64,000 bases of DNA from Turicibacter sanguinis (GTDB lineage: Bacteria > Bacillota_I > Bacilli_A > MOL361 > Turicibacteraceae), in assembly GCF_013046825.1 (NCBI RefSeq), contig NZ_CP053187.1, forward strand, positions 1,787,501 to 1,851,500. Reading direction: 5' to 3'. The notes beneath the pieces were generated by a model. The model did no database searches. It had not been told where the DNA came from and saw only the letters and a list, made by a program, of their open reading frames with translations. Position numbers and translations under genes: made by a program. Positions 4,107-64,000 of this stretch are shown one piece after another (position 1 is the stretch's first letter; each line of letters opens with the position of its first letter).

Positions 4107-5048
4107 ATGCGAGTATACGAATTTGCACGAAAATATAATATGACAAGTAAAGAAGTTGTAACGGTATGTCAAGAACTAGGGATTGAGGTCAAAGCTCAAT
4201 CTAAATTAAATGATGAATCTCTTGAAGTACTGAATGGACGTTTAAGTCAAGGAAAAGACACAGAGGTAAAAGAGATAAAAGAGGTCGTGAAGCCTACAGT
4301 CATTAAACGTCAAAAAGTTAAAAAACCAATGTTATATGTGGTAACGGAATGTGAACCATTTACAAACCTTGGAGAGCTTGGAAAAGTTTCGAAAGCATTT
4401 GTTGAAGCTCAAGAGGGAGATGTAATAGTGGCTTTACCAAAGTATTTAAATATATCTGAAACATTTGGAAATGAAATGGATTGGCTTATGGATTTACCGG
4501 TTAAATTCGGAACACATGAAGCTCGTGCTTCAATTTTTAAATTAGTAGAAGGAAATGTGACGTATTTATTTGTTGGAAATGATCACTACTTCCACCGTAA
4601 TGAGATTTATGGATTCGCAGATGATGTGGAACGTTTTGCTTTCTTTAATCGTGCCATCTTAGATGTGTTACCTCTTTTAGGAATGCAAGTGGGTGAAATT
4701 CAGGTGAATGAATGGCATACAAGTATGTTACCGTTAATGTTACATGTTGATTATCATCAACATCCTTATTTCTCGAAAGTCAAAACAACGTTAAACATTC
4801 ATAATTTAGAATATCAAGGTTGGTATGATGCAAGCATTTTAACAGAAGTATTAGGAATCAGTCGTGAGTATTATGACAATGGATTGACACGTATGGGGGA
4901 TTCTGTTAACTTACTAAAGAGTGGAATTGAAACAGCACATAAAGTCGTTTTAACAGATATTAGTGCTGGGCAAATGAAGTTAGATGGAATGGTGAACAGT
5001 GGAATTACGGCTGTTTTGGAAAATAAAGTCCTAAATCAAGCAGTATAA
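4107..5048 (+). CDS. IF2-N domain fused to a degenerate, half-length glycogen synthase (GT5) domain
   Basis: Residues 1-46 (MRVYEFARKYNMTSKEVV...) match the small N-terminal domain of translation initiation factor IF-2. After a charged linker (about 47-73), residues 74-300 resemble the N-terminal GT5 half of bacterial glycogen synthase: TECEPF near the start, IYGFADDVERFAFF in the middle and LNIHNLEYQG later, all alignable by eye to the GlgA part of the gene at 54.5 kb. The ADP-glucose/catalytic KTGGL motif is replaced by TNLGELG, the HDW motif by NEW, and the C-terminal GT1 half is absent. It is therefore unlikely to make glycogen; a binding or regulatory role is an inference. It stands alone between terminators. 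Start chosen by GGGGGGA 8 nt upstream. Confidence 0.8.
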   Translation: MRVYEFARKYNMTSKEVVTVCQELGIEVKAQSKLNDESLEVLNGRLSQGKDTEVKEIKEVVKPTVIKRQKVKKPMLYVVTECEPFTNLGELGKVSKAFVEAQEGDVIVALPKYLNISETFGNEMDWLMDLPVKFGTHEARASIFKLVEGNVTYLFVGNDHYFHRNEIYGFADDVERFAFFNRAILDVLPLLGMQVGEIQVNEWHTSMLPLMLHVDYHQHPYFSKVKTTLNIHNLEYQGWYDASILTEVLGISREYYDNGLTRMGDSVNLLKSGIETAHKVVLTDISAGQMKLDGMVNSGITAVLENKVLNQAV

Positions 5049-7446: not shown

Positions 7447-10400
7447 ATGAAAACAACAGAAGAAATTCAATCAGTGTTAATGAATCCAGAAATTTTTGAA
7501 ATCAACCGTTTAAAGGCACATAGTGATCATCGTTATTATCAAACATTAGCAGAAGCAGTGTCTAAAGGTGAGATGACGTGGCGCCACTCATTAAATGGAC
7601 AATGGTTATTTAAATATAGTGAAAATGTGATGGAGCGTCCAGTTGGGTTTGAAGCGTTAAACTTTAATCTTGATGGATTTGAGCGTATTAATGTTCCAGG
7701 GCATATCCAATTACAAGGTTATGATAAACCACACTATGTGAATACTCAGTATCCTTGGGATGGGCATGAAGAATTAAAACCTCCATACATTCCAGTTAAC
7801 TATAATCCAACGTCATCTTATGTGACTTACTTTGATGTGCCAAAAGAGTGGGGTGGGCAACCAGTTTGTATTTCATTTCAAGGGGTCGAGACTGCTTTTA
7901 ACGTTTGGTGTAATGGAGAGTTTGTTGGATATAGTGAGGATAGCTTTACGCCAAGTGAGTTTGACTTAACAAATTTTATCAACCGTGAAGGTGAAAATAA
8001 ATTAGCAGTTCAGGTTTATAAATGGTCAACAGGAAGTTGGCTTGAAGATCAAGATTTTTGGCGTTTATCAGGAATCTTCCGTGATGTTTATTTATTCACG
8101 AAACCAACGACTCATGTCGAAGACTTATTTGTGAAAACAACACTAAAAAATGACTATCAGGATGCAATGGTCAGCGTAGACTTCAGGGTAATCGGTGAAG
8201 AGGCAACGATTGTCGCACAATTAGTGGATGGAGAAGGTCAAGCTGTAGCAAGTGGAACTTGCGAAGTGGTAAATGAAACAGCACACCTTGAATTAGAAGT
8301 AGAAGGTGCTCACTTATGGAGTGCAGAACATCCGTATCTTTATCAATTGCAATTAGAAGTGAAAGTGAAAGGTGAAGTTGTTGAAGCGATTTGTCAACGT
8401 GTTGGAGTCCGCCAATTTGAAATGATTAATAAAGTGATGCACTTAAATGGAAAACGTATCGTCTTCCGTGGAGTTAATCGCCATGAATTTAGTGCGACTT
8501 ATGGACGTAGTGTCACAAATGAAGAAATGGAATGGGATGTTAAATTCTTAAAAGAATATAACTTCAATTCAGTTCGTACGTCACATTATCCAAATGCGTC
8601 TTACTTCTATGAATTATGTGATGAGTACGGTCTATATTTAATTGATGAAACGAATCTTGAAACACATGGAACTTGGCAACGTATGGGGGCAGTTGAAGAA
8701 AATGACGTGACACTTCCAAACGGACGTCCTGAATTTTTAGAAATTATTTTAGATCGTGCAAAGTCAATGCTTGAACGAGATAAAAACCACCCAAGTATTT
8801 TAATTTGGTCTTGTGGAAATGAAAGTTTCGGGGGAGAAAACTTATATAAAATGTCGGAGTACTTCAGACATCGTGATGAAACGCGCTTAGTCCATTACGA
8901 AGGGGTATTCTGGGATCGTCGTTTCAATGGGACATCGGATATGGAAAGTCGTATGTATGCAAAGGTTCCAGAAATCCGTGAATACTTAGATAATAATCCT
9001 GAAAAACCATTTATTTTATGTGAATATACCCATGCAATGGGCAACTCAAATGGTGGAATGGATCGCTACATTGAATTAGAAAATGAGTATGACATGTACC
9101 AAGGTGGATTCATTTGGGATTATATAGATCAAGCATTATGGACTGAAGATCGATATGGTAAGCCATATTTAGCGTTTGGTGGAGATTTTGGTGATCAGCC
9201 AACGGATTATAACTTCTGTGTCAATGGAATTATTTATGCTAATCGTGAAGCATCGCCAAAAATGCAAGCGATTAAAGGAGCATATCAACCATTTACAATT
9301 GAAGTTAAAGACGGTGGGGCGCAAATTCAAAACAAGAACATGTTCACAAATTTAAATGAATATACTCTAAAGTGGGAAATTGTGCGTGGTGAAGAAGTCG
9401 TATCATCTGGTGAGAGATACTATGATTTAGAACCATTATCAACTGGTTTCATTGATTTAGGGATCAATGTGACTCCACATCAGGAAGAACAAGTGATAAC
9501 CATCTCAATTTGTTTAAAAGAAGACACAATGTTTGCTCCATGTGGTCATGAGGTAGCATTTGGTCAGTTAATTGTGGATGCAGTTAAAGAAGAAGAGATT
9601 CGTCCTGTTAAAGCGTTCCAAATTGCAAATGGTGACGTGAATGTTGGAATTAGCGGTGAAGGATTTGAGGTCATATTTGCTAAAAACTTAGGACGTATGG
9701 TTTCAATGAAATATGATGGGATTGAGTATATTCACCAACCAAACTTATCGTTAATGCCAAATTTCTGGCGTGCATCAACGGATAATGATCGAGGAAATCA
9801 AGCGCCGATTAGAATGGCACAGTGGAAGTTGGCTTCGATGTATGCCTTCAATGAATTTATGGAAATTAATCGTCTTGAAGAAGGATTAGAAGTTATTTTT
9901 ACTTATAATTTAAATACAATGCCAGTTTCGCATGCAATTGTTAAATACTTCATTAATAGTTATGGTCAAATTCACGTGACAATGAGTTATGAAGGTGTTG
10001 AGGGATTACCAAACATGTTTAAGTTTGGAATGGATTTAGCGATTCCTTGTGAGTTCAATACGTTAACTTGGCGAGGATTTGGACCTGATGAAACGTATGC
10101 AGACCGTGAGTTTGGAGCACGCTATGGAACATTTACGAACAAAGTAGCTGACAATCTAGCGGCTTATGTGATTCCTCAAGCATGTGGAAATCATACGGGA
10201 GTACGTTATGCAACGTTAACAAACGAATCAGGAGCAGGGTTAAAAATTACAGGAGATGCTCCATTAAGTTTCTCAGCGCTTCCGTACACATCTCATGAGT
10301 TAGAAGCGGCGTTCCATCATTATGAATTGCCACCTGTTCACAAAACAGTTCTTTCAATTAATCATCAGGAAATGGGAGTTGGAGGCGATGATTCTTGGGG

Positions 10401-10479
10401 AGCGCGCCCAGACGCAAGATTTGAATTGCCAGCCAACATGAAGTATGAATATAGCTTTGTAATTGAGTCAGTAAAATAG
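7447..10479 (+). CDS. lacZ: Beta-galactosidase LacZ, GH2 family, copy 1
   Basis: Hydrolyses lactose and related beta-galactosides in the cytosol. The 1010 residues follow the E. coli LacZ plan: jelly-roll sugar-binding domain (about 50-220), immunoglobulin-like domain, TIM barrel (about 330-625) and C-terminal small-chain domain (about 740-1005). The acid/base is Glu459 in SCGNESFGG and the nucleophile Glu526 in LCEYTHAMGNSNGG. No signal peptide. Shine-Dalgarno GGGGAGG lies 11 nt upstream. A second full-length copy starts 234 bp downstream, of the same length and without gaps between the two catalytic residues. A transporter for lactose is not in the immediate neighbourhood; the GPH symporter at 2.4 kb or the binding protein at 14.7 kb may serve (inference). 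Confidence 0.96.
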   Translation: MKTTEEIQSVLMNPEIFEINRLKAHSDHRYYQTLAEAVSKGEMTWRHSLNGQWLFKYSENVMERPVGFEALNFNLDGFERINVPGHIQLQGYDKPHYVNTQYPWDGHEELKPPYIPVNYNPTSSYVTYFDVPKEWGGQPVCISFQGVETAFNVWCNGEFVGYSEDSFTPSEFDLTNFINREGENKLAVQVYKWSTGSWLEDQDFWRLSGIFRDVYLFTKPTTHVEDLFVKTTLKNDYQDAMVSVDFRVIGEEATIVAQLVDGEGQAVASGTCEVVNETAHLELEVEGAHLWSAEHPYLYQLQLEVKVKGEVVEAICQRVGVRQFEMINKVMHLNGKRIVFRGVNRHEFSATYGRSVTNEEMEWDVKFLKEYNFNSVRTSHYPNASYFYELCDEYGLYLIDETNLETHGTWQRMGAVEENDVTLPNGRPEFLEIILDRAKSMLERDKNHPSILIWSCGNESFGGENLYKMSEYFRHRDETRLVHYEGVFWDRRFNGTSDMESRMYAKVPEIREYLDNNPEKPFILCEYTHAMGNSNGGMDRYIELENEYDMYQGGFIWDYIDQALWTEDRYGKPYLAFGGDFGDQPTDYNFCVNGIIYANREASPKMQAIKGAYQPFTIEVKDGGAQIQNKNMFTNLNEYTLKWEIVRGEEVVSSGERYYDLEPLSTGFIDLGINVTPHQEEQVITISICLKEDTMFAPCGHEVAFGQLIVDAVKEEEIRPVKAFQIANGDVNVGISGEGFEVIFAKNLGRMVSMKYDGIEYIHQPNLSLMPNFWRASTDNDRGNQAPIRMAQWKLASMYAFNEFMEINRLEEGLEVIFTYNLNTMPVSHAIVKYFINSYGQIHVTMSYEGVEGLPNMFKFGMDLAIPCEFNTLTWRGFGPDETYADREFGARYGTFTNKVADNLAAYVIPQACGNHTGVRYATLTNESGAGLKITGDAPLSFSALPYTSHELEAAFHHYELPPVHKTVLSINHQEMGVGGDDSWGARPDARFELPANMKYEYSFVIESVK

Positions 10480-10713: not shown

Positions 10714-13700
10714 ATGAAAACGACGCAAGAGATTCAGTCAGTGTTAATGAATCTAGAAATTTTTGAAATTAATCGTTTAAAAGCACATAGTGATCATCGT
10801 TATTATCAAACATTAACAGAAGCCATTTCTAAAGTACAGATGACATGGCGTCGCTCATTAAATGGAGAATGGTTATTTAATTATAGTGAAAACGTGATGG
10901 AACGTCCGGTTGGATTTGAAGCGTTAAATTTTAATTGTCAGAATTTTAATCGTATTCATGTTCCAGGCCACATTCAATTACAAGGTTATGATAAACCTCA
11001 TTACGTAAATGCACAGTATCCTTGGGATGGGCACGAGGAGTTAGTCCCACCCTATATTCCGACGACATTTAATCCAACGGCTTCTTATGTCACTTACTTT
11101 GAAGTACCAAAAGAGTGGGAAGGACAAACGGTTTGTATTTCATTTCAAGGGGTTGAGACCGCCTTTAATGTCTGGTGTAATGGAGAGTTTGTTGGATATA
11201 GTGAGGATAGCTTTACACCGAGTGAATTTGATTTAACAAACTTCATCAACCGTGAAGGTGAAAATAAATTAGCAGTTCAGGTTTATAAATGGTCAACAGG
11301 AAGTTGGCTTGAAGATCAAGATTTTTGGCGTTTATCAGGAATTTTTCGTGATGTTTATTTATTCACGAAACCAACAACGCATGTGGAAGATTTATTTGTG
11401 AAAACAACACTAAAAAATGACTATCAGGATGCAACGGTAAGCGTAGACTTCAAGGTAATCGGTCAACAGGCAACAATTGTTTCACAATTAGTAGATGCAA
11501 ATGGACAGGTTGTGGCTAGTGGAGCTTGTGATGTTTTTGATGGATGTGCAAAATTAGAGTTAGATATCACTAATGCTCACTTATGGAGTGCAGAACATCC
11601 GTATCTTTATCAATTGCAATTAGAGGTAAAGGTAAAAGGTGAAGTTGTTGAAGGGATTTGTCAACGTGTCGGAATTCGTCAATTTGAAATGATTAATAAA
11701 GTGATGCATTTAAATGGGAAACGCATCGTGTTCCGAGGTGTAAATCGTCATGAATTTAGTGCAACTTACGGACGTAGTGTAACAAAAGAAGAGATGGAAT
11801 GGGATGTGAAATTTTTAAAAGAGCATAATTTTAATGCAGTTCGTACCTCACATTATCCAAACGCTTCGTATTTCTATGAGTTATGTGATGAATATGGATT
11901 ATATTTAATTGATGAAACGAATCTTGAAACTCATGGGACTTGGAAGTATGGTGTTTCGGTTGAAGAAAATGAGCCGGCTATTCCAAACGGACGTCCTGAA
12001 TTTTTAGAAATTATTTTAGATCGTGCAAAGTCAATGCTTGAACGAGATAAAAACCATCCAAGTATTTTAATTTGGTCTTGTGGAAATGAAAGTTTTGGGG
12101 GAGAAAACTTATACAAAATGTCACAGTACTTCCGTGAAGCTGATGAAACCCGCCTTGTTCACTATGAAGGAGTTTTTCATGACCGCCGTTATCATAAAAC
12201 ATCAGATATGGAAAGTCGCATGTATACGAGAGTTCCTGAAATTCGTGAATACTTGGATAACCATCCTGAAAAGCCATTTATTTTATGTGAATATACCCAT
12301 GCAATGGGCAACTCAAATGGTGGAATGGACCGCTACATTGAGCTTGAAGATGAGTACGAGATGTACCAAGGTGGATTCATATGGGACTATATTGATCAAG
12401 CGTTATGGACAAAGGATCGCTACGGTAAGCCATATTTAGCGTTCGGTGGAGATTTTTCTGATCAGCCAACGGATTATAATTTCTGTGTCAACGGAATTAT
12501 TTATGCGAATCGTGAAGCATCACCAAAAATGCAAGCGATTAAAGGGGCATATCAACCCTTTACGGTGATTGTAAAAGAGGGTGGAGCACAGATTCAGAAC
12601 AAGCATTTATTTACGAATTTAAATGAATATACACTGAAGTGGGAGGTTGAATCGGGTGAAAAATTAGTAGCATCTGGTGAGGGATACTATAACTTAGAAC
12701 CATTATCAACAGGATTTATTGATTTAGGAATCGATATGACGCCACGTCAGGAGGAATTAGTGGTAACTGTTTCAATCTGTTTAAAAGAAGATAAATTATT
12801 CGCTTCATGTGGACATGAGATAGCATTTGGTCAATGCATCATAGAGGCAGTTAAAGAAGAAGCAGCTCAACCTGTAAAAGAATTTACGATTGTAGAAGGT
12901 AGTACAAATGTTGGAATTCATGGTGAAGGATTTGAAGTGCTGTTTGGTAAAATACTCGGGCGCATCGTATCGATAAAATATGATGGTGTGGAGTATATTC
13001 ATCAACCAAACTTATCATTGATGCCAAGCTTCTGGCGAGCGGCGACTGATAATGATCGTGGAAGTCGAGCTCATCTTCAATCTGCACAATGGAGAACAGC
13101 AACCCTTTCTTCATTCCATGAAAAATTAGAATTTAATCGACGTGTAGACGGCTTAGAAGTAATCATTACGTATAATTTAAATACCATTCCAAGTTCTCAT
13201 GCTATCGTGACCTACTTTATTAATAGTTATGGACAAATTCATGTTCACATGAGTTATAAAGGTATTGAAGGCTTACCAAATATGTTCAAATTTGGAATGG
13301 ATTTAGCGATTCCATGTGAGTTTAATACATTAACATGGCGAGGATTCGGGCCAGATGAAACATATGCTGACCGTGAATTTGGGGCTAAATATGGAACTTA
13401 TACAAATAAAGTTGCTGATAATGTAGCAGGATATGTGATTCCTCAAGCATGTGGAAATCACACGAGAGTACGTTATGCAACCATAACGAATGCAACTGGA
13501 GCAGGATTAAAAATTACAGGAGATGCTCCATTAAGTTTCTCAGCTTTACCTTATACATCTCATGAATTAGAAGTAGCGTTCCACCATTATGAATTACCAC
13601 CTGTCCATAAAACAGTTCTTTCGATTAACGCTCAAGAAATGGGAGTTGGAGGTGATGATTCTTGGGGAGCACGCCCAGAAGCGAGATTTGAATTGCCTGG

Positions 13701-13746
13701 TAACGAAAATTATGAATACAGTTTTGTGATTGAGCCGACAAAATAA
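10714..13746 (+). CDS. lacZ: Beta-galactosidase LacZ, GH2 family, copy 2
   Basis: Second full-length beta-galactosidase with the same 1010-residue length and domain plan as the preceding gene; acid/base Glu459 and nucleophile Glu526 fall at identical positions. Most of the chain is close to copy 1, but differences cluster around residues 400-412 (TWKYGVSVEENEP against TWQRMGAVEENDV), 485-500 and 780-810, next to or near the catalytic barrel and in the C-terminal domain, so substrate preference may differ. Several stretches match copy 1 base for base, which points to gene conversion after duplication. Shine-Dalgarno GTGGGGG lies upstream of the ATG. The 234-bp gap and terminator suggest separate control. 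Confidence 0.96.
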   Translation: MKTTQEIQSVLMNLEIFEINRLKAHSDHRYYQTLTEAISKVQMTWRRSLNGEWLFNYSENVMERPVGFEALNFNCQNFNRIHVPGHIQLQGYDKPHYVNAQYPWDGHEELVPPYIPTTFNPTASYVTYFEVPKEWEGQTVCISFQGVETAFNVWCNGEFVGYSEDSFTPSEFDLTNFINREGENKLAVQVYKWSTGSWLEDQDFWRLSGIFRDVYLFTKPTTHVEDLFVKTTLKNDYQDATVSVDFKVIGQQATIVSQLVDANGQVVASGACDVFDGCAKLELDITNAHLWSAEHPYLYQLQLEVKVKGEVVEGICQRVGIRQFEMINKVMHLNGKRIVFRGVNRHEFSATYGRSVTKEEMEWDVKFLKEHNFNAVRTSHYPNASYFYELCDEYGLYLIDETNLETHGTWKYGVSVEENEPAIPNGRPEFLEIILDRAKSMLERDKNHPSILIWSCGNESFGGENLYKMSQYFREADETRLVHYEGVFHDRRYHKTSDMESRMYTRVPEIREYLDNHPEKPFILCEYTHAMGNSNGGMDRYIELEDEYEMYQGGFIWDYIDQALWTKDRYGKPYLAFGGDFSDQPTDYNFCVNGIIYANREASPKMQAIKGAYQPFTVIVKEGGAQIQNKHLFTNLNEYTLKWEVESGEKLVASGEGYYNLEPLSTGFIDLGIDMTPRQEELVVTVSICLKEDKLFASCGHEIAFGQCIIEAVKEEAAQPVKEFTIVEGSTNVGIHGEGFEVLFGKILGRIVSIKYDGVEYIHQPNLSLMPSFWRAATDNDRGSRAHLQSAQWRTATLSSFHEKLEFNRRVDGLEVIITYNLNTIPSSHAIVTYFINSYGQIHVHMSYKGIEGLPNMFKFGMDLAIPCEFNTLTWRGFGPDETYADREFGAKYGTYTNKVADNVAGYVIPQACGNHTRVRYATITNATGAGLKITGDAPLSFSALPYTSHELEVAFHHYELPPVHKTVLSINAQEMGVGGDDSWGARPEARFELPGNENYEYSFVIEPTK

Positions 13747-51417: not shown

Positions 51418-53328
51418 ATGATTGAATTTACATCAGGTGATCGTTATTTATTTAATGAAGGAACACATAAACAACTATATAAGAAGTTTGGATCTTTTGT
51501 TGTTCGTGATAATGAAGAAGTGTTGGGAACGTATTTTTGTGTTTATGCACCACATGCTTCAAAAGTTTGTGTAGTAGGGGATTTTAATCATTGGAATGGA
51601 ACGCATCATGAGATGCGAAGAGATGATGGGATTTGGTCATTGTTTATTCCAGGAATTGGTGAAGGTTCTATCTATAAGTATGAGATTGTAACGGCTTTTG
51701 GTCAAACCATTTTAAAGGCTGATCCATATGCCTTTTATGCGGAACAACGTCCAAATACGGCTTCTATTGTTTATGATATTGAGGGGTTTGAATGGACAGA
51801 TGCAGAGTGGGCGAAAAAACGTCAATTTTCGAATATTTTTGAGGAGCCATTAAATATTTATGAACTTCATTTAGGATCTTGGAGACGTAATAAAGAATTA
51901 GTAGAGTCTGAAACGTTTCATAGCTATACTGAAATTATGGATGAGTTAATTGAATATGTTTTAGAGCATAGTTATACGCATATTGAATTGATGCCTTTAT
52001 ATGAGCATCCATTTGATGGGTCATGGGGATATCAAGCAACAGGATACTATGCGGCAAGTAGTCGTTATGGTGAACCAAAAGATTTAATGATGTTAATTAA
52101 TCGTTGTCATGAAGCGGGAATAGGGGTCATTATGGACTGGGTACCAGGACATTTTTGTCGTGATGCTCACGGTTTATTTAAATTCGATGGAGAAGCAGTC
52201 TATGAGTATCCATATGAGGATGTAGCCGTTTCAGAATGGGGAACAGGAAACTTTGATTTAGGTAAAGGAACAGTTCGCAGTTTCTTAATTTCAAATGCTC
52301 TTTTTTGGATGAAGTATTATCACGTAGATGGTTTCCGTGTCGATGCGGTTGCGAATATGATTTATTGGGATGGAAATAAGTCTCGCGGTGTGAATCATGG
52401 CGCTGTAGAGTTTATTCAAAAGTTAAATGAGGCAGTTTTCTTAGAAGATGATAAGATTTTAATGATTGCTGAAGATTCAACCAGTTATCCGTTAGTAACA
52501 GCACCAGTATCGGTAGGTGGACTTGGTTTTAGTTATAAATGGAATATGGGATGGATGAATGATACGTTAGATTACATTGAATTAGATAATATTTATCGCC
52601 CATATCACCACAATTACATTACTTTTGCAATGGCTTATGCTTACAGTGAAAACTTCGTTCTTCCATTCTCTCACGATGAAGTAGTTCATGGAAAGAAATC
52701 ATTAGTGGATAAGGCACCAGGTGATTACTGGCAAAAGCTTGCACAATTTAGATTGCTATGTACCTATCAAATGACGTTGCCAGGGAAAAAATTGAACTTT
52801 ATGGCGAATGAAATTGCACAGTTTCATGAGTGGAAAGATAAAGAACAGGTGGATTGGCATTTATTAAAATATCCGGCACATGATGCTTCGAATCGTTATA
52901 TTAAAGATTTAAATAAATTGTATTTAAATGAGCCAGCACTTTGGGAACTTGATCACTCATTTGAAGGATTTGAATGGATTGATGTGAATAATAATGAGCA
53001 GAGTATTTTCTCTTATATCCGTAAATGTAAGAATGCGGATGAATTTGTTGTAGTGGTACTAAACTTTAAACCAGTTCCATATCATCAATATAGAGTGGGG
53101 GTTCCATGCTTTGGAGAGTATACAGAGGCCCTAAATAGTGATCGTGATTATTATCATGGTTCAAATCAATATAATGGATTGCCATTAGTGGCGAAAAAAG
53201 GGATGACACATGGGAAACCATATTATATTGAAGTAACGATTCCACCTTATGGAGCAACGATTTTTAAATATCGTCCACTCGAAGAAGAAACAGAGGTAGA
53301 AGAAGGGTTAGAAGTTGAACTAGCTTAA
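51418..53328 (+). CDS. glgB: 1,4-alpha-glucan branching enzyme
   Basis: Introduces alpha-1,6 branches into glycogen. The 636 residues comprise a CBM48 domain (about 25-115), a GH13 barrel (about 150-520) and a C-terminal beta domain. The nucleophile is Asp309 in GFRVDAVANM, the acid/base Glu352 in IAEDSTSYP, and the third Asp lies in PFSHDEVVHGK. First gene of glgB-glgC-glgDA; glgC starts 17 bp later. Confidence 0.96.
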   Translation: MIEFTSGDRYLFNEGTHKQLYKKFGSFVVRDNEEVLGTYFCVYAPHASKVCVVGDFNHWNGTHHEMRRDDGIWSLFIPGIGEGSIYKYEIVTAFGQTILKADPYAFYAEQRPNTASIVYDIEGFEWTDAEWAKKRQFSNIFEEPLNIYELHLGSWRRNKELVESETFHSYTEIMDELIEYVLEHSYTHIELMPLYEHPFDGSWGYQATGYYAASSRYGEPKDLMMLINRCHEAGIGVIMDWVPGHFCRDAHGLFKFDGEAVYEYPYEDVAVSEWGTGNFDLGKGTVRSFLISNALFWMKYYHVDGFRVDAVANMIYWDGNKSRGVNHGAVEFIQKLNEAVFLEDDKILMIAEDSTSYPLVTAPVSVGGLGFSYKWNMGWMNDTLDYIELDNIYRPYHHNYITFAMAYAYSENFVLPFSHDEVVHGKKSLVDKAPGDYWQKLAQFRLLCTYQMTLPGKKLNFMANEIAQFHEWKDKEQVDWHLLKYPAHDASNRYIKDLNKLYLNEPALWELDHSFEGFEWIDVNNNEQSIFSYIRKCKNADEFVVVVLNFKPVPYHQYRVGVPCFGEYTEALNSDRDYYHGSNQYNGLPLVAKKGMTHGKPYYIEVTIPPYGATIFKYRPLEEETEVEEGLEVELA

Positions 53329-53345
53329 CACACAAGAAATGGGGG

Positions 53346-54512
53346 ATGGGGTTGGCTGTCAATGTTGTGGCGATTATATTAGCCGGGGGAAAAGGGACGC
53401 GCTTAAAAGAATTAACGATTCATCGTCCAAAACCAGCTATTTCGTTTGCTGGAAAGTATCGATTGATTGATTTTGTTTTAAGCAATTGTACGAATTCAGG
53501 GATTGAACAAGTAGGGGTTCTAACACAGTATGAACCCCTAGAATTAATTAGTTATATTGGAGAAGGTAGTTCGTGGGATTTAGATGTTCATGGAGCATCT
53601 GTTACGGTTATGGGACCATATACTTCACGTGATTATGGATTTTTATGGCAAGGTGGAACGGCCGAAGCTGTCATTATGAATATGCCGTTTATTGAGCAGT
53701 ATGATCCTGATTATTTACTTGTCTTATCTGCAGATCACATTTATAAAATGGACTATCGTAAACTTATTGACTATCATATTGAAAAGCAGGCTGAGTTAAC
53801 GATTTCAACGATTCGTGTTCCAAAAGAGGATACCAGTCGTTTTGGAATGTTAAAGGTTAACGATCAAAATCGAATTATTGAGTTTGAGGAAAAGCCAAAG
53901 GAGACGGATAGTCAGTTAGCTTCAATGGGAATTTATGTTTTTAATTGGAAGAAGTTTAAAGAGGAGATTGTCCATAAATATTACAAGCATTTGTATGAAG
54001 GTGTTGATTTTGCTCAAGATGTGATTCCACATTTTATTGAAGCAGATAGCGCTGTTTATGCATATGAGTATGAAGGGTATTGGCGTGATGTTGGAACAGT
54101 AGAAAGTTATTGGAAGGCTCATATGGATTTACTTGGCACTCAAGATGAGCTACAATTACACGATTATAGCTGGCCAATTTTTTCTAAAACACCAAATTTA
54201 CCCCCACATCATATTCTTCAGGGTGCTAAAGTGAAGAATGCTTGGGTGAATGAAGGATGCATGATTTTTGGCGAAGTGTATAATTCGATTGTTGCTCATC
54301 GATGTGTGATTGAAAAAGGTGCTGTTGTTGAAGATAGTGTGATTTTAACGAGCGCATTTATCGAACATGATTGTTATATTAAGTATGCAATTATTGGAGA
54401 TGAAGTCGTTATTCCGGCGCATACTGAATTGATTGGTCGTGAGGATGAAATTTTACTTGTGACTCATGATAATCTTGAGGAAATACTTGAAACTCAAAGT
54501 AGGGGGGATTGA
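53346..54512 (+). CDS. glgC: Glucose-1-phosphate adenylyltransferase, catalytic subunit
   Basis: Makes ADP-glucose from ATP and glucose-1-phosphate. A 388-residue protein with the nucleotidyltransferase motif ILAGGKGTRLKEL, YRLIDFVLSNC, and a left-handed beta-helix domain from about 290. ATG 53346 has no spaced ribosome site, whereas TTG 53352 lies 6 nt after GGGGG and would give a protein two residues shorter; the choice is open. Pairs with the GlgD half of the next gene. Confidence 0.93.
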   Translation: MGLAVNVVAIILAGGKGTRLKELTIHRPKPAISFAGKYRLIDFVLSNCTNSGIEQVGVLTQYEPLELISYIGEGSSWDLDVHGASVTVMGPYTSRDYGFLWQGGTAEAVIMNMPFIEQYDPDYLLVLSADHIYKMDYRKLIDYHIEKQAELTISTIRVPKEDTSRFGMLKVNDQNRIIEFEEKPKETDSQLASMGIYVFNWKKFKEEIVHKYYKHLYEGVDFAQDVIPHFIEADSAVYAYEYEGYWRDVGTVESYWKAHMDLLGTQDELQLHDYSWPIFSKTPNLPPHHILQGAKVKNAWVNEGCMIFGEVYNSIVAHRCVIEKGAVVEDSVILTSAFIEHDCYIKYAIIGDEVVIPAHTELIGREDEILLVTHDNLEEILETQSRGD

Positions 54513-54514
54513 GA

Positions 54515-56962
54515 GTGAAGAATAAGGCCTTGTGTGTAATTGATGGAACCAATACGTCTCAATCGTTGCAGAATTTATTAAATCAACGTTGTGTAGCCGC
54601 CTTACCATTTGCAGGACGCTACCGATTAATTGATTTTGCTTTATCTAATGCAGTGCATTCAGGCATTACGAACGTATCAATCTTTCCAGACGGTGACTAT
54701 CATTCCTTAAGTGATCATATTCGTTCCGGCAAGTTTTGGGGCCTTGATCGTAAGGTGGATGGCCTATTTTTATTGCCTCCCAAAAAAGAAGTGAGTGCCG
54801 TGGCCAATACATTGACATTTGCGAGAATGAGGGAATATATTGAGTATTTTATGCGATCACGGCAACAATATGTTGTGATGTACCATGCGAATATTATTAC
54901 ATCTATTCCTTTTGAAAAATTACTACAATCTCATATTGAATCGAAAGCAGATGTGACACAAGTTTATTATCGAAATCGCTCAGTTGGTATTTTTGTACTA
55001 TCTCGCGAGTACTTAATTGATTTAATTTTACGGTATGAGATTTCTCCGTATCAGACAGTGACAGATTTAGTCGAAATGTGTGATGGTTTAAAAGTTAATC
55101 ATTATCACCATTCTACTTATACGAGAACGATTGAATCCATTGTGTCGTATTATCGTGCTAATTTAGATATGTTACATTATGAGTATGGATTTCAAATCTT
55201 CTTGTTAGAGCGACCTGTATTAACGAAAACAAAGGACGAATCACCAACGTTTTATAAAAAACAAGCCGATGTTTCAAATTCCTTAATTGCAAATGGGTGT
55301 AATATTGAAGGAAAAGTTGAAAATTGTATTATTTTTCGTGATGTAACGATTAAACGAGGTGCGGTTGTTAAAAATTCGGTTATTTTACCAAGGACCATTA
55401 TTGGTGAAAATAGTATTATTAATAATGTGATTACAGATAAGCATGCTTATATTAATGATGGAGCTCGATTAAGTGGTCAAGATTATGCACCTGTTATTAT
55501 CGGTAAGGGGCAACGTGTGATGGGGAATAAAGGCATTAGTGTAGCCCAAATTTCAACTGAATGTGTTCCCTTTTATAAAACAGGTGGTTTAGCGGATGTG
55601 ACTGCTGATTTAACGAAAGAATTGATTAATCAAGGATTAAATGTGGATGTTATTTTACCCTATTTAAGCTCTTTAGCTGAACGTTATAATGAAAATTTAA
55701 CTCATCAATTTCAATCCTTAATAGCAATTAATGAGTTAGAGATTCCTTATGATGTTTATCGTTATTCAAAAGAAGGGGTAAACTATTTCTTTATTTCATA
55801 TGGCGAATTATCACGTGAAAATTTATATGGCTATTCAGATGATTGTCGTCGATATGAATTATACTGCTATGTGGCACTCGATTTTATTGAGAAGAGTGGG
55901 CTGAAGTATGATGTCATTCATTGTCATGACTGGTTAACAGGACTTGTTCCGTTTTTTATGAAAAATATATTTATGAAGCAGTCTGATCATTTTGCTTATA
56001 CTAAAACAGTTTTCACGATTCATAATATTCATTATCAAGGGATTTGTGATGTGTCTGATTTAGGGGTTATTTCAACGCTAGCTACGATTCCAAATGAAAT
56101 TATGCTATTTGAAAAAGTGAATTTTATGAAGACCGCTATTGTAATGAGTGATGAAATTACAACAGTGTCCGAAACGTATTGTAATGAAATTTGTTATCCT
56201 TATTTTGCTGAAGGATTAGACCGTTTTATTGTCGCAAGAAAAGATCATCTTCACGGAATTTTAAATGGAATTAACTATGATTATAATAATCCAGCTACTG
56301 ATTTAAGTATCTTTAAGCGCTACTCTTTTAAAACAATAGAAGTTAAAAAGGAAAATAAAATGCAGATGCAACGTGAGCTAGGATTAGTCGTGAATGCAAA
56401 TGTACCGATTATCGGGATGGTAACGAGAATGGTAGAACAAAAAGGATTCGATTTGATTTTAAAAGTATTTGAAGAATTAATTCGTGAAGATATTCAGTTT
56501 GTTTTACTTGGAGATGGAGAGGCGAAGTATACGAGCTTCTTTAGGAGAATGGCCGAAAAATATCCAACTAAGGTATCTGTTAACATAGGGTTCCATTCCT
56601 ATAATTCTCAGATGATTTATGCGGGAAGTGATATTTTCCTCATGCCATCACGCTTTGAACCATGTGGCATTAGCCAGATGATTGCACTCAAGTATGGGAC
56701 CATTCCCGTTGTGCGCGAAACGGGTGGTTTGAAAGATACGATTATTCCGTATAATGAGTTTATTCAATATGGAAATGGATTTGGTTTTGCGCATTATAAT
56801 GCGCATGATATGTTGTTTACGCTTAAGCGAGCATTAGGATTTTATCGGATGCCAGAACACTGGGGGAAATTAGTTAAAAGTGCAATGGAACAAGATTTGA
56901 GTTGGAAAAAATCAACGGAAAAATATATTAATTTATATCGTCATTTAGTAAATGAAGAATAG
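54515..56962 (+). CDS. GlgD-GlgA fusion: GlgC-like regulatory subunit joined to glycogen synthase
   Basis: A single 815-residue reading frame. Residues 1-338 are GlgD, the non-catalytic ADP-glucose pyrophosphorylase partner (AALPFAGRYRLIDFALSNAV, but no GGxGTRL loop at the N-terminus; here IDGTNTSQSL). Residues 341-815 are a complete glycogen synthase: KTGGL (356-360), HCHDWLTGLVP, FTIHNIHYQG, the GT1 half with GMVTRMVEQKG and the ExxxxxxxE segment EPCGISQMIALKYGT. Each half is usually encoded separately (glgD about 370, glgA about 475 residues). No linker separates them. GTG 54515 has AGGGGGG upstream and lies 2 bp after glgC. The fusion ties ADP-glucose production to its use. Confidence 0.93.
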   Translation: MKNKALCVIDGTNTSQSLQNLLNQRCVAALPFAGRYRLIDFALSNAVHSGITNVSIFPDGDYHSLSDHIRSGKFWGLDRKVDGLFLLPPKKEVSAVANTLTFARMREYIEYFMRSRQQYVVMYHANIITSIPFEKLLQSHIESKADVTQVYYRNRSVGIFVLSREYLIDLILRYEISPYQTVTDLVEMCDGLKVNHYHHSTYTRTIESIVSYYRANLDMLHYEYGFQIFLLERPVLTKTKDESPTFYKKQADVSNSLIANGCNIEGKVENCIIFRDVTIKRGAVVKNSVILPRTIIGENSIINNVITDKHAYINDGARLSGQDYAPVIIGKGQRVMGNKGISVAQISTECVPFYKTGGLADVTADLTKELINQGLNVDVILPYLSSLAERYNENLTHQFQSLIAINELEIPYDVYRYSKEGVNYFFISYGELSRENLYGYSDDCRRYELYCYVALDFIEKSGLKYDVIHCHDWLTGLVPFFMKNIFMKQSDHFAYTKTVFTIHNIHYQGICDVSDLGVISTLATIPNEIMLFEKVNFMKTAIVMSDEITTVSETYCNEICYPYFAEGLDRFIVARKDHLHGILNGINYDYNNPATDLSIFKRYSFKTIEVKKENKMQMQRELGLVVNANVPIIGMVTRMVEQKGFDLILKVFEELIREDIQFVLLGDGEAKYTSFFRRMAEKYPTKVSVNIGFHSYNSQMIYAGSDIFLMPSRFEPCGISQMIALKYGTIPVVRETGGLKDTIIPYNEFIQYGNGFGFAHYNAHDMLFTLKRALGFYRMPEHWGKLVKSAMEQDLSWKKSTEKYINLYRHLVNEE

Positions 56963-56972
56963 TTTAGAGGAA

Positions 56973-57020
56973 CTTGTGATTTAATACGGTAAGAGATCGT
57001 GTTAAATCATGAGTTTTTTA
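56973..57020 (+). terminator. Rho-independent terminator after glgDA
   Basis: CTTGTGATTTAATACG / CGTGTTAAATCATGAG 16-bp stem (two G-U pairs) and T6 run. Confidence 0.88.
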
Positions 57021-57124: not shown

Positions 57125-57220
57125 GTTACATGGGTTAAAACCCTTTATTATCAATGTTTATGTGCTATAATGAGTTTATGAAATGGAAAAAAGTGTGTAA
57201 CTGTTACATATGTGTTACAT
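57125..57220 (+). promoter_or_regulatory. glgP promoter with GTTACAT repeats
   Basis: Extended -10 TGCTATAAT at 57163-57171. GTTACAT occurs three times (57125, 57203, 57214), and TGTAAC-T-GTTACA (57196-57208) is a perfect inverted repeat in the leader, between start of transcription and ribosome site. A dedicated regulator may bind these; none is recognised. Confidence 0.45.
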
Positions 57221-57245
57221 AATAATGGAAGGGAGTCATCTCGCT

Positions 57246-59681
57246 ATGGCTAATGTATTTGCTAATAAAAAGACATTTAAGGAAACATTCCAAACACGTG
57301 TTGAACAAATTTATGGGATTAAGTTTGAAGAAAGTACACCACACCAACGTTACTTTACGTTAGGAACGCTAGTTCGTGAATATATCTCATCTAACTGGAT
57401 TGAAACGAATGAAGCAATTGTTGAGGGGAAACACAAGCAAGTTTATTATTTCTCTATGGAATTCCTAATGGGGCGTTTATTAACAAATAATATTATGAAC
57501 TTAGGAATTCGCCCGGTGATTGAAGCTGGATTAAAAGAGCTAGATATAGAATTAAATGAATTAGAAAAAATTGAAGCGGATGCAGGACTTGGAAATGGAG
57601 GTCTTGGTCGTTTAGCAGCATGTTTTATGGATTCAATTGCTTCTTTAGGATTACCAGGACACGGGAATGGTCTTCGTTACCGTTATGGATTCTTTGAACA
57701 AAAAATTATCGATGGATACCAAGTTGAAGTTCCAGATAAATGGTTACAACGTGGGTATGTATGGGAAGTTCGTAAATCAAATGAATCAGTTGAAGTTCCA
57801 TTTTATGGATATGTTAAAGTTGAAAAAATAGATGGGCGTGAAGTTTATACTCATATCCCAGAAGAATATGTTCGTGCTGTTCCTTATGATGTACCAGTTG
57901 TTGGAGATATTTCAAATGGAAATAAAACAGTTGATACCTTACGTTTATGGTCATCTGAACCAACTGAAAATGAATATCCAAAAAATATGTCAGCTGTTGA
58001 ATATGAAAAAGGAGTTCGTAACATCTCTGAATTCTTATATCCAGATGATTCAACAGAAGAAGGAAAAATCTTACGTTTAAAACAACAATATTTCTTCGTT
58101 GCAGCGGGAGTTCGTTGGGCAGTTCGCCAACATAAAGAAACATTTGGAACATTAGATAACTTCATGGACAAAAATGTATTACACATCAACGATACTCATC
58201 CAGCTTTAATTGTTCCTGAATTAATGCGTATTTTAATCGATGAAGAGGGTTATGATTGGGATAGCGCATGGGCTATTACAAGTAAAACGTGTGCGTATAC
58301 AAACCATACTATCTTAGCTGAAGCCTTAGAAAAATGGCCTGTACGCTTATTCCAACCATTATTACCACGTATCTATATGATTACAGAGGAAATCAACCGT
58401 CGTTATTGTTTAGAATTATTAAATCGTTATGCGGATCAACCACAAAAAGTTGCTGAACTTGCCATTATCGGACATAATCAAGTGCGTATGGCACACTTAG
58501 CAATTGTTGGATCATTTAGTATCAATGGGGTAGCGCAATTACATACAGATATCTTAACTCAAATTGAGATGAAAGATTTCAATGAAATGTATCCAGAACG
58601 TTTCAATAATAAAACAAACGGTATTACTCACCGTCGTTGGTTATTACACTGTAACCCTGAGTTAACCGCTCTTTTAGATAAAGAAATCGGAACAGGGTAT
58701 CATACGAATACATTTGAACTTGCGAAGTTTGAAGAAAAAATTAATGATCCAAAAGTTCAAGAGGCCATTGCTTCAATGAAGCATGCAAGAAAACAAGCCT
58801 TAGCAGAACGTATTTATCGTGAGCAAGGGGTTCAATTAGATCCAAACTCAATTTTTGATATTCAAGTTAAACGTCTACATGCTTACAAACGTCAGCTATT
58901 AAATGCAATGCATATCATGTATTTATATAACCGATTAAAAGAAGATCAAGAGTTCAAAGCTAACTTCCACCCACAATCATTCATCTTCGGTGCTAAAGCA
59001 GCTTCAGGATATTACTTTGCGAAGAAAGTTATTAAATTAATTAATTCAATTGCTGAAAAAGTAAATAATGATCCAGATACAAATCAGTTATTAAAAGTTG
59101 TATTCGTTGAAAACTATAACGTAACTTATGCTGAATTAATTATGCCGGCTGCAGATTTATCAGAACAAATTTCAACAGCATCTAAAGAAGCGTCAGGAAC
59201 AGGAAACATGAAATTCATGATGAATGGTGCGATGACAATTGGAACGATGGATGGAGCAAATGTTGAAATTCATGAGTTAGTTGGAGATGAAAATAGCTTT
59301 ATCTTTGGATTAACTGCTGATGAAGTAAATAATTATTATCAAAATGGAGGATATAATCCATGGGATCTTTATAACTCAGATGCACGTATCCGCCGCGTTC
59401 TTGATCAATTGGTTAATGGATTCTTAACACCAGATACAGAAGAATTCCGTGATATCTTCAATGCAGTAACACATAATGGGGATGAATACTTCGTATTAAA
59501 AGACTTCGATTCATATGTTCGTGCTCAAGAAAAAGCAAACCAAGCTTATAAAAACCGTCAACATTGGATTGAAATGTCTATCCGCAATATCTCACGTTCA
59601 GGTAAATTCTCATCAGACCGAACTATCCAAGAATATGCTGATCAAATTTGGCACGTGGAACCATTAAAATTTAAAAAATAA
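57246..59681 (+). CDS. glgP: Glycogen phosphorylase
   Basis: Releases glucose-1-phosphate from glycogen with phosphate. The 811-residue GT35 enzyme shows ADAGLGNGGLGRLAACFMDS in the N-terminal part and PLP-binding Lys656 in SGTGNMKFMMNGA. ATG 57246 has GGAAGGGAG upstream; the 12 codons before it lack a ribosome site. It follows the glycogen operon but has its own promoter, separated by a terminator. Confidence 0.96.
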   Translation: MANVFANKKTFKETFQTRVEQIYGIKFEESTPHQRYFTLGTLVREYISSNWIETNEAIVEGKHKQVYYFSMEFLMGRLLTNNIMNLGIRPVIEAGLKELDIELNELEKIEADAGLGNGGLGRLAACFMDSIASLGLPGHGNGLRYRYGFFEQKIIDGYQVEVPDKWLQRGYVWEVRKSNESVEVPFYGYVKVEKIDGREVYTHIPEEYVRAVPYDVPVVGDISNGNKTVDTLRLWSSEPTENEYPKNMSAVEYEKGVRNISEFLYPDDSTEEGKILRLKQQYFFVAAGVRWAVRQHKETFGTLDNFMDKNVLHINDTHPALIVPELMRILIDEEGYDWDSAWAITSKTCAYTNHTILAEALEKWPVRLFQPLLPRIYMITEEINRRYCLELLNRYADQPQKVAELAIIGHNQVRMAHLAIVGSFSINGVAQLHTDILTQIEMKDFNEMYPERFNNKTNGITHRRWLLHCNPELTALLDKEIGTGYHTNTFELAKFEEKINDPKVQEAIASMKHARKQALAERIYREQGVQLDPNSIFDIQVKRLHAYKRQLLNAMHIMYLYNRLKEDQEFKANFHPQSFIFGAKAASGYYFAKKVIKLINSIAEKVNNDPDTNQLLKVVFVENYNVTYAELIMPAADLSEQISTASKEASGTGNMKFMMNGAMTIGTMDGANVEIHELVGDENSFIFGLTADEVNNYYQNGGYNPWDLYNSDARIRRVLDQLVNGFLTPDTEEFRDIFNAVTHNGDEYFVLKDFDSYVRAQEKANQAYKNRQHWIEMSIRNISRSGKFSSDRTIQEYADQIWHVEPLKFKK

Positions 59682-61677: not shown

Positions 61678-61706
61678 ATTCGACAATTTGTTTTAAAAAG
61701 TTTACC
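61678..61706 (-). promoter_or_regulatory. Putative ECF-sigma promoter of the deacetylase gene
   Basis: Minus strand: GGTAAAC (61706-61700), 17-nt spacer, CGAATT (from 61682). It aligns position by position with the promoter before the sigma gene (TAAAC, T-run, AAAC, then CG), although the -10 is CGAA rather than CGTC. Confidence 0.45.
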
Positions 61707-61723
61707 TACCAGTGGTAGGTAAA
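61701..61723 (-). terminator. Terminator-like hairpin at the end of the anti-sigma gene
   Basis: Perfect 10-bp stem TTTACCTACC / GGTAGGTAAA with a 3-nt loop, followed on the minus strand by CTTTTT. It covers the last codons and stop of the anti-sigma gene and touches the -35 box of the next promoter. The short T-run suggests partial termination. Confidence 0.6.
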
Positions 61724-62571
61724 GAAGATGAATGGATTGTAAATTCAGGGAATCCCATATAACCAGGAGCAATGGAGTATTTATCAAAGACAACCACTAC
61801 ATCTCCTGATGAATTAATATAAAAGGTTTGGTTATCAGCAATGCTTTTAAATTCATTTTCATTTTCATGGAAGAATAGTTGATAACCATCTTTTTCTCGA
61901 TCAACAATTTGTTGTTTAATTTGAGGGTCAATAATCTCTTTATATTGATCACCCAAAATATCTTTAAGCGTCACTTCTTTCCCAGTGTTCAAATCAATAT
62001 TATAGAAATATTTTTCAGTTCCAACACTCACGTAGTTTTCACTTTTCGTAATAACAAATGATACAAAGTGATCATCACTATACTTAATTTCATAATCAAC
62101 ATTGACCAAAACAGGTAGAAACTCTTGTCCTTCTGTATTCGTGGCCATGAAAGCATCGTAATATTCTTGAGCTCGTTTTTCCGACTCTGCGACACTTAAA
62201 TTAATTTTTTCTAAAATCTCCTGGTTGATTTGATTTTCAAGTTTTGTATTGCCAGTATCTTTTAATCCCGGAATTTTAACATCAACTAATTTCACTGTAT
62301 CCTCATGATAGTAACTACTAATGGTAAAGATTTTTGCTAGTTGGCTAATAATAGGAATATCTGAAAGGCTTGCAGCAAAGGTTGGAGAAGTGTTTAGTAA
62401 TAAAATAAAAACCGTTGAAATAGATAAAAAAATGGCTATGAAAGGAGACCTAGAGTTAATAGGACGGGAGCCCTGAGCCGACGCATAAATAGCCTCATTG
62501 ACAACATCGGTTAATTCTTTTGGAATAGGAGTTTCATCATAAATTTTTTTGGTGCCTCTTAGTCTATTCAT
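61702..62571 (-). CDS. RsiV-like anti-sigma factor (DUF3298/DUF4163)
   Basis: A 289-residue single-pass membrane protein: cytosolic N-terminus (about 1-45) that should hold the sigma factor, one membrane helix (about 46-66, IFLSISTVFILLL), and an extracellular part with the DUF4163/DUF3298 fold (VFDKYSIAPGYMGFPEF near the end). In Bacillus RsiV this part binds lysozyme and triggers proteolysis that frees SigV. ATG 62571 has AAGGAG upstream and overlaps the sigma gene by 8 nt, so expression is coupled. Confidence 0.87.
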   Translation of the reverse strand: MNRLRGTKKIYDETPIPKELTDVVNEAIYASAQGSRPINSRSPFIAIFLSISTVFILLLNTSPTFAASLSDIPIISQLAKIFTISSYYHEDTVKLVDVKIPGLKDTGNTKLENQINQEILEKINLSVAESEKRAQEYYDAFMATNTEGQEFLPVLVNVDYEIKYSDDHFVSFVITKSENYVSVGTEKYFYNIDLNTGKEVTLKDILGDQYKEIIDPQIKQQIVDREKDGYQLFFHENENEFKSIADNQTFYINSSGDVVVVFDKYSIAPGYMGFPEFTIHSSSLPTTGR

Positions 62572-63070
62572 AAAAATCACTCTCCTTGAGTTCAAGTTTT
62601 AATAGTTTTAAGGCTTTGTATAACCTCGATTTTACTGTACTGAGATTCAGTTTAGTAATCGTTGCGATTTCTTCTAAAGACATTTCCTCATAAAAACGAA
62701 GAATGATAATGACCCTTAATTTATCTGGTAATGCATTGACGTTTTGATACAGATTTAATTCATCTATGTCATATTGATGTTGATATCCCATGACAAAATC
62801 AATTTCCTCAATGGCGAGCATTCTTTTATTTTTACGAAGATAGGTCATGCTTTCATTTATGAGAATACGATAAAACCATGTTTTCAAATGGTTCATCTCG
62901 CGTAAATTTTGATATTTAGTTAAAGCTTTATATACGGCGTTTGATACAACATCGAGCGCCGCTTGTTCATTTGGAATATAACGATAAGCAAACCGATAAA
63001 ATTGAGCTTGATTGGTCGTTATAAATTCAACTAGTTGTTTGTATACTTCCTCATCTTGATGTGGTGCCAC
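62564..63070 (-). CDS. ECF sigma factor, SigV-like
   Basis: A 168-residue extracytoplasmic-function sigma factor with sigma-2 (about 12-80, with FRFAYRYIPNEQAALDVVSN-like helix) and sigma-4 (about 112-160, EEMSLEEIATITKLNLSTVK). It would direct RNA polymerase to cell-wall stress genes when released by the RsiV-like protein encoded next. The start is GTG 63070, with GGGAG 9 nt upstream. A matching ECF promoter lies about 45 bp upstream, implying autoregulation. Confidence 0.9.
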   Translation of the reverse strand: MAPHQDEEVYKQLVEFITTNQAQFYRFAYRYIPNEQAALDVVSNAVYKALTKYQNLREMNHLKTWFYRILINESMTYLRKNKRMLAIEEIDFVMGYQHQYDIDELNLYQNVNALPDKLRVIIILRFYEEMSLEEIATITKLNLSTVKSRLYKALKLLKLELKESDFYE

Positions 63071-63113
63071 GGCCGTCGGCTCCCTTCTAACCCTAATTTG
63101 TTCCCATTCATTA

Positions 63114-63140
63114 GACGCATATAAGTTTAAAAAAGTTTAA
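63114..63140 (-). promoter_or_regulatory. ECF-type autoregulatory promoter of the sigma gene
   Basis: Minus strand: TTAAAC (63140-63135), 17-nt spacer, CGTC (63117-63114), continuing TAAT. It resembles the TGAAAC-N16/17-CGTC pattern of Bacillus SigV/SigW-group promoters. Confidence 0.6.
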
Positions 63141-63286
63141 AAAATTTTTAAAAAGTGTATATTTTTAATTATTTAGAATGGAAAGGAGTCATAGTAATGA
63201 CCTGTGCTCTTGGCGAATAGGACTAGCTGTTAATGGAGTAGTATGATTTATCCCATGAATTTGCGTGAATCATATTGTGTCAAAAT

Positions 63287-63320
63287 AAAAGACCACTTCT
63301 AATGAGTTGAAGTGGTCTCT
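63287..63320 (-). terminator. Terminator overlapping the end of the last gene
   Basis: Minus strand GAGACCACTTC / GAAGTGGTCTTTT hairpin; the stop codon of the DUF3298 gene lies in its loop. The T-run TTTTATTTTG follows. Confidence 0.87.
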
Positions 63321-64000
63321 TGATCAACTATAAATTCAGGAAAACCCATATAGCCAGGCGCAATGTCATATTTATCAAAAACAATGACAATTTGATTTTG
63401 CTCATTTAGATAAAATTTTTGATGATCTGAAATGGATTGGAATTCATTTTCATCATGAAAGAATAATTGATTTTCATGTTTTTCTCGTTGTGCAATTTGT
63501 TGTTTGATTTGAGGATTGATAATTTCTTTATAAGTAGGGCCAAAAAAATCTTCGAGTGTGAGCATTTTTCCAGTGGTTAAATCGATATTGTAAAAGTATT
63601 CTTCTGTTTGAGCACTCAAAAAACTTTTAAATAAGGTTAATTCAAATGATAACACATCAGCATTTTCTTTTTTTATGTCATAAGTCACCAAAACTTCAAG
63701 TGGGATGAACTGATCTTCTTTTGAATGAGAGGCCATAAATGCTTCATAATATTGCTCAGACTCATGTGTCACTTCCTCTATTTTAGAATTGACTTTATGT
63801 AAGATATCGTTGTTAATATCTTTTTCGAGTTCAGGAAAAGATGTGTTTGAAAGACCTGGAACCGTTAAGTCGATTTTAAGTAGAGGGGACTCGGTGTGTT
63901 CTTCTTTGACGGTATTGACGTAGTTGAGAGAGTCCTTGGCATAAATTTTAATCTCACAAAGTAAACACATGGCGATGAAACTTAGAAATAACCATCGTTT
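63299..64000 (-). CDS. Secreted DUF3298 protein, RsiV-like outer domain only (start outside window)
   Basis: Paralogue of the extracellular half of the RsiV-like anti-sigma factor: the endings VFDKYDIAPGYMGFPEF and INPQIKQQIAQREK match it almost residue for residue. The frame is open to the window edge; upstream of the first in-frame ATG (63970) it reads KRWLFLSFIA then MCLLCEIKIYAK, which is a signal peptide, so the true start is a few codons beyond base 64000. It has no sigma-binding part. It may be a secreted lysozyme-binding decoy or a family member of unknown use (inference). Confidence 0.82.
   Translation of the reverse strand, partial: KRWLFLSFIAMCLLCEIKIYAKDSLNYVNTVKEEHTESPLLKIDLTVPGLSNTSFPELEKDINNDILHKVNSKIEEVTHESEQYYEAFMASHSKEDQFIPLEVLVTYDIKKENADVLSFELTLFKSFLSAQTEEYFYNIDLTTGKMLTLEDFFGPTYKEIINPQIKQQIAQREKHENQLFFHDENEFQSISDHQKFYLNEQNQIVIVFDKYDIAPGYMGFPEFIVDQETTSTH

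Follow-up and report, generated by a model that had tools for sequence, protein, structure and literature searches.

The window analyzed here is a stretch of 64,000 nucleotides from the genome of Turicibacter sanguinis, which is a single contig of 2,999,687 bases. A glycogen operon with the gene order glgB-glgC-glgDA-glgP is located in it. The third gene encodes GlgD and GlgA in one polypeptide. The genes and features are as follows.

51418–53328, + strand: glgB, branching enzyme, first gene of the operon (NCBIfam NF003811, 841 bits)
53346–54512, + strand: glgC, catalytic ADP-glucose pyrophosphorylase subunit GlgC1 (NF003670, 497 bits, cut-off 470)
54515–56962, + strand: glgDA, fused GlgD-GlgA of 815 amino acids, open from GTG to stop in one frame
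54515–55525, + strand: GlgD moiety, residues 1 to about 337 (TIGR02092 above cut-off; PF24894 at residues 249–319)
54956–54985, + strand: place of the deletion in GlgD, about residues 148–157, with approximately 33–36 residues missing compared to GlgC1
55505–55561, + strand: junction, K331 to E349
55535–56959, + strand: GlgA moiety, residues 341–815, complete GT5 synthase (TIGR02095 above cut-off; ten active-site positions)
56970–57016, + strand: terminator-like hairpin in the gap from glgDA to glgP, with a stem of 20 pairs and a T run
57210–59681, + strand: glgP, glycogen phosphorylase (PF00343, 1033 bits)

The stop codon of glgC and the start codon of glgDA are separated by 2 bases. The GTG at 54515 is preceded by a purine-rich AGGGGGG stretch and aligns with the ATG starts of relatives; a TTG six bases 5' of it is a possible alternative start. 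The true start of glgP is probably the ATG at 57246, judging from a comparison with a relative. The gap between glgDA and glgP comprises 250–800 bases in Turicibacter, compared to mostly less than 100 bases between the frames in other families. Given this wider gap and the strong hairpin, glgP might have its own transcript in Turicibacter. Numerically the hairpin is weakly supported, with four terminator-like sites observed in the region and a mean of 2.8 in shuffled sequences. In one other locus (L065, 4469–6933) glgP is apparently broken into two frames. Elsewhere in the window, a tandem pair of LacZ-type β-galactosidases of 1010 residues each is present (7447–10479 and 10714–13746). In 61702–64000 (− strand) a gene for a sigma-70-family factor overlaps the gene of a DUF3298/PdaC protein, and a second, similar protein is found at the edge of the window.

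The first-pass annotation had described the frame as GlgD and a full glycogen synthase without a linker, joined at about codon 340. Both statements are borne out. The 815-residue protein scores 313.4 bits with the GlgD family TIGR02092 (curated NCBIfam cut-off 236.6) and 492.7 bits with the GlgA family TIGR02095 (cut-off 328.45), and the junction is located at codons 338–342. The starch synthase catalytic domain of Pfam begins at residue 343. The same annotation had named a stop codon hidden by a sequencing error, or relatives with separate genes, as grounds for doubt. A hidden stop is excluded, since no stop codon interrupts the junction in five of five genomes of the genus, including that of the window, nor in G005, which belongs to another genus of the same family and carries the fusion at 73% identity. 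Relatives with separate genes were found in G006 and G007, where TAA is followed by ATG; these form a separate lineage and do not point to an error in the window.

The fused frame is present and open at 73–86% identity in five further genomes of the Turicibacter family. A survey of 395 genomes, in which the class was sampled evenly, yielded 54 full-length fusions in a single frame and three more that are cut by contig ends. The fusions are distributed over five family-level groups, designated here by codes, with 6 in f1, 3 in f8, 22 in f12, 4 in f20 and 19 in f22; these figures are counts and not rates. In a second survey of 392 genomes, the matches listed were all from the one class, and among them full-length fusions occurred only in these five groups. 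In one match marked as containing a TAA (G104), the frame is open throughout in the fetched locus. The GlgD-GlgA fusion is genuine, and it is both old and conserved.

The surroundings of the fused gene are conserved as well. In all 53 fetched fusion loci glgP is found downstream. glgC lies upstream of glgDA in 50 of them, the remaining three being cut by contig ends, and glgB precedes glgC in 48, with all absences at contig ends. Within the stretches fetched, fused and separate operons have the same gene order. For several separate-gene loci, no adjoining glgB or glgP is present in these stretches.

The GlgD moiety is composed of a degenerate nucleotidyltransferase part followed by a left-handed β-helix, to which the Pfam match at residues 249–319 corresponds. 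In the alignment, GlgC1 retains the motifs GGKGTRL, SADH and FEEKP. Both the nucleotide loop (GGxGxRL) and the sugar-binding FEEKP are absent from the GlgD half, which thus lacks what characterizes a catalytic ADP-glucose pyrophosphorylase. It is also shorter than a full-length GlgD, which has about 370 residues and includes the segment in which GlgC has its FEEKP motif. This segment is reduced to 4–5 residues in all 53 fused GlgD moieties and in four of four unfused relatives (f1g3 and f8x), compared to 37–40 residues in all 22 other separate GlgD sequences. On this basis the GlgD half is classed as a shortened GlgD variant. Here, f1g3 denotes G006 and G007, and f8x an extra glgC-glgD pair in two f8 genomes (L183, 13217–15405, and L184, 3572–5784) that is present besides the fusion operon. 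The f8x pair consists of a second glgC and an unfused GlgD frame of 349 residues, which has the same deletion and no glgA attached.

The GlgA moiety should be active as a synthase, judging from its residues. Ten positions taken, from the E. coli GlgA, to belong to the active site are identical in every one of the 53 fused GlgA moieties, and stand-alone GlgA sequences vary slightly at some of them. The position aligned with E715 is Glu in PDB entry 2qzs and Ala in 3cop. Compared to the E. coli GT5 enzyme (PDB entries 2qzs and 3d1j), the synthase part of GlgDA likewise has a complete catalytic domain with the active-site positions retained, but it has no free N-terminus and its first strand follows directly on the β-helix of GlgD. 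Purifying selection acts on both halves in Turicibacter, as indicated by dN/dS values of about 0.02–0.06 for GlgD and about 0.02–0.08 for GlgA in the six of ten pairs that were computable for both halves; these dS values approach saturation, which both halves have reached in the four pairs that involve G005.

Phylogenetic trees were calculated from subsamples of 106 GlgA, 79 GlgD and approximately 101 GlgC sequences. L102 contributes to neither the GlgD nor the GlgA set, and L113 (f17), which has a long branch, is included in the quick trees and omitted from the careful ones. The fused GlgA moieties form one group in the quick tree (99) and in the careful tree (100/97), and the GlgC partners of the fused genes also form one group (SH-aLRT 99). 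The fused GlgD moieties likewise stay together in the quick tree (86). With f8x added, the careful tree places the unfused f8x GlgD among them (91/85), a position that would require either a second fusion or a fission. A single clade of fused GlgD is not rejected (AU p = 0.341). Neither is a grouping of f1g3 GlgD with the f1 fusions (p = 0.229), nor one of f1g3 GlgA with the fused GlgA (p = 0.203).

In f1g3, glgD, TAA, ATG and glgA follow each other in one frame with zero bases between the genes. Thus, the loss of one stop codon suffices for a fusion. At most other separate loci a single stop codon parts the frames of glgD and glgA. Since two unfused lineages share the deletion in GlgD, it is probably older than the fusion. 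The simplest history suggested by the sequences is a deletion in GlgD and a single fusion after it; a second fusion event or a fission is possible as well. An independent fusion in Subdoligranulum was considered and rejected: one tblastn piece that extends across 99% of the query resembles a fusion, yet the genes are separate. Of 20 plasmid records with a query coverage of 80% or more, three served as the sample of Clostridia (Monoglobus, Acetoanaerobium and Subdoligranulum), and glgD and glgA are separate in each of these three. A scan of viral contigs revealed no relative.

The junction was inspected in 54 aligned copies (the window and 53 others, one of them partial). The invariant Lys331 and the invariant Glu349 are 18 residues apart in every copy, and from 235 to 430 the alignment has no indel common to more than two rows. 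As a control, stretches of 19 residues were inspected along GlgDA, and 561 of 796 are likewise free of shared indels. Because such stretches are not rare in GlgDA, the constant spacing is weak evidence for rigidity on its own. It fits a folded part and argues against a flexible linker.

The genome to which the window belongs encodes a further synthase. The separate genes glgC2 and glgA2 are located about 100 kb from glgDA (L009, 7889–10549), flanked by a pyruvate oxidoreductase-like gene on one side and by aromatic-amino-acid genes on the other, these neighbors being named by eye from their translations. In a comparison of 28 hand-picked genomes, all 22 with the fusion contain a stand-alone second GlgA and hence two GlgA each, and all six without it contain one. 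As the fused genomes are probably one lineage, this correspondence is an association rather than independent evidence. In the two f8 loci inspected, the second GlgA has no adjoining glgC2. Additional GT5-like sequence is present in the window itself (4107–5048, + strand), where a protein of 313 residues consists of an IF2_N segment and the N-terminal half of a GT5 synthase (PF08323). The C-terminal half is absent, and similar matches are found in the genus relatives L018, L019 and L020.

In bacteria, glycogen synthesis is considered to be controlled at ADP-glucose pyrophosphorylase. With reasonable rather than strong confidence, we propose that GlgD docks an active glycogen synthase onto GlgC, and that the fusion arose by the loss of a stop codon after the deletion, most simply once. 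The GlgD half, without nucleotide loop and sugar-binding segment, would be a catalytically dead ADP-glucose pyrophosphorylase subunit, and would serve solely as a docking and regulatory scaffold for the GlgC encoded just upstream. The GlgA half would be a working glycogen synthase that depends on ADP-glucose. Through the binding of GlgD to GlgC, this synthase would be anchored to the maker of its substrate without a flexible linker and in a fixed ratio. The fusion would have resulted from the loss of the stop codon between in-frame adjacent genes when the sugar-binding segment of GlgD was already gone, most simply once, in an ancestor shared by at least five of the family-level groups in the class.

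According to PMC9093745, Firmicutes have GlgC or GlgC/GlgD tetramers, with heterotetramers in Geobacillus stearothermophilus, Streptococcus mutans and Ruminococcus albus, and GlgD is without activity and has a modulatory function. Turicibacter resembles these Bacillota in that glgC is found beside a GlgD of the same family (TIGR02092) that has no catalytic motifs. In contrast to them, its GlgD is about 36 residues shorter and forms the N-terminal half of a glycogen synthase. It is plausible that the fusion brings GlgC and GlgA into one complex, since that paper describes GlgC/GlgD tetramers and glgC adjoins glgDA in nearly all loci. A single-chain structure prediction from three sequences (the window, L026 and L027) gave a pLDDT of 38.8 and is worthless as a model.

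Other explanations of the fused gene have to be weighed against docking. A sequencing or assembly artefact is excluded, as the same open frame recurs in the five other genomes of the family (73–86% identity) and in four other families. It is possible, albeit doubtful, that the fusion merely sets stoichiometry and translation, the stop codon having been lost as a neutral or slightly useful change, with each half functioning just like its separate counterpart and without kinetic coupling. Little change would have been needed, given the in-frame arrangement of f1g3 and the single stop codon at most other separate loci, and the gene order shared by fused and separate operons agrees with such a history. 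On the other hand, the fusion is retained in five family-level groups with a constant spacing, and none of the 54 aligned copies has been split again even though one stop-creating change would be enough; f8x might be an exception.

The GlgD half might instead be an effector-sensing domain that acts in cis on GlgA and has lost the binding to GlgC. It has lost more of the pyrophosphorylase core than ordinary GlgD and is nevertheless under purifying selection, which speaks for this explanation. This explanation is unlikely, since the unfused GlgD of f1g3 and f8x, which is encoded beside glgC, has the same deletion, which is thus compatible with a GlgC partner. Furthermore, glgC still adjoins the fused gene in 50 of 53 loci and the partner GlgC sequences form one group. 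It appears highly improbable that two products are made, with a stand-alone GlgA arising besides the fusion through internal initiation of translation near codon 336 or through cleavage of the chain at the junction. Codon 336 is an ATG with AAGGGG or AAAGGG upstream in the window and in L105, but close relatives have another codon there. A conserved internal start was not found at the junction: an ATG of any kind is present in 15 of 54 fusions, and one with a Shine-Dalgarno-like stretch (at least 4) in two.

Docking of the synthase on GlgC may have further consequences. The GlgC/GlgDA assembly could be a metabolon in which glycogen synthase modules sit in fixed geometry on an ADP-glucose pyrophosphorylase tetramer, with local transfer of ADP-glucose and with effectors of GlgC/GlgD that set the rate of the synthase, and the free GlgA2 of the same cell would then use free ADP-glucose. 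Such channelling and joint allosteric control, and with them a benefit from coupling, are rather speculative extensions of the docking reading. The fused synthase is not necessarily the chief glycogen maker, given the stand-alone second GlgA in all 22 fused genomes.

No description of a GlgD-GlgA fusion was recognized in the open-access PMC literature searched; the string "GlgD-GlgA" occurs in one paper, PMC5463993. Other fusions in the glycogen pathway are TreS-Pep2/Mak and the GlgA-GlgB of Criblamydiaceae and Waddliaceae (PMC11046441). Like GlgDA, these combine two glycogen-pathway enzymes in one chain, but with other partners. The branching domain of GlgA-GlgB is described in that paper as inactive, whereas the synthase residues of GlgDA are intact.

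A natural and conserved fusion makes the contact between ADP-glucose pyrophosphorylase and glycogen synthase directly testable, and it suggests that the non-catalytic GlgD serves as a scaffold. Furthermore, these genomes show a tethered and a free glycogen synthase occurring naturally together in the same cell. Even without coupling, the fusion would be a useful evolutionary marker, recording first a deletion and then the loss of a stop codon.
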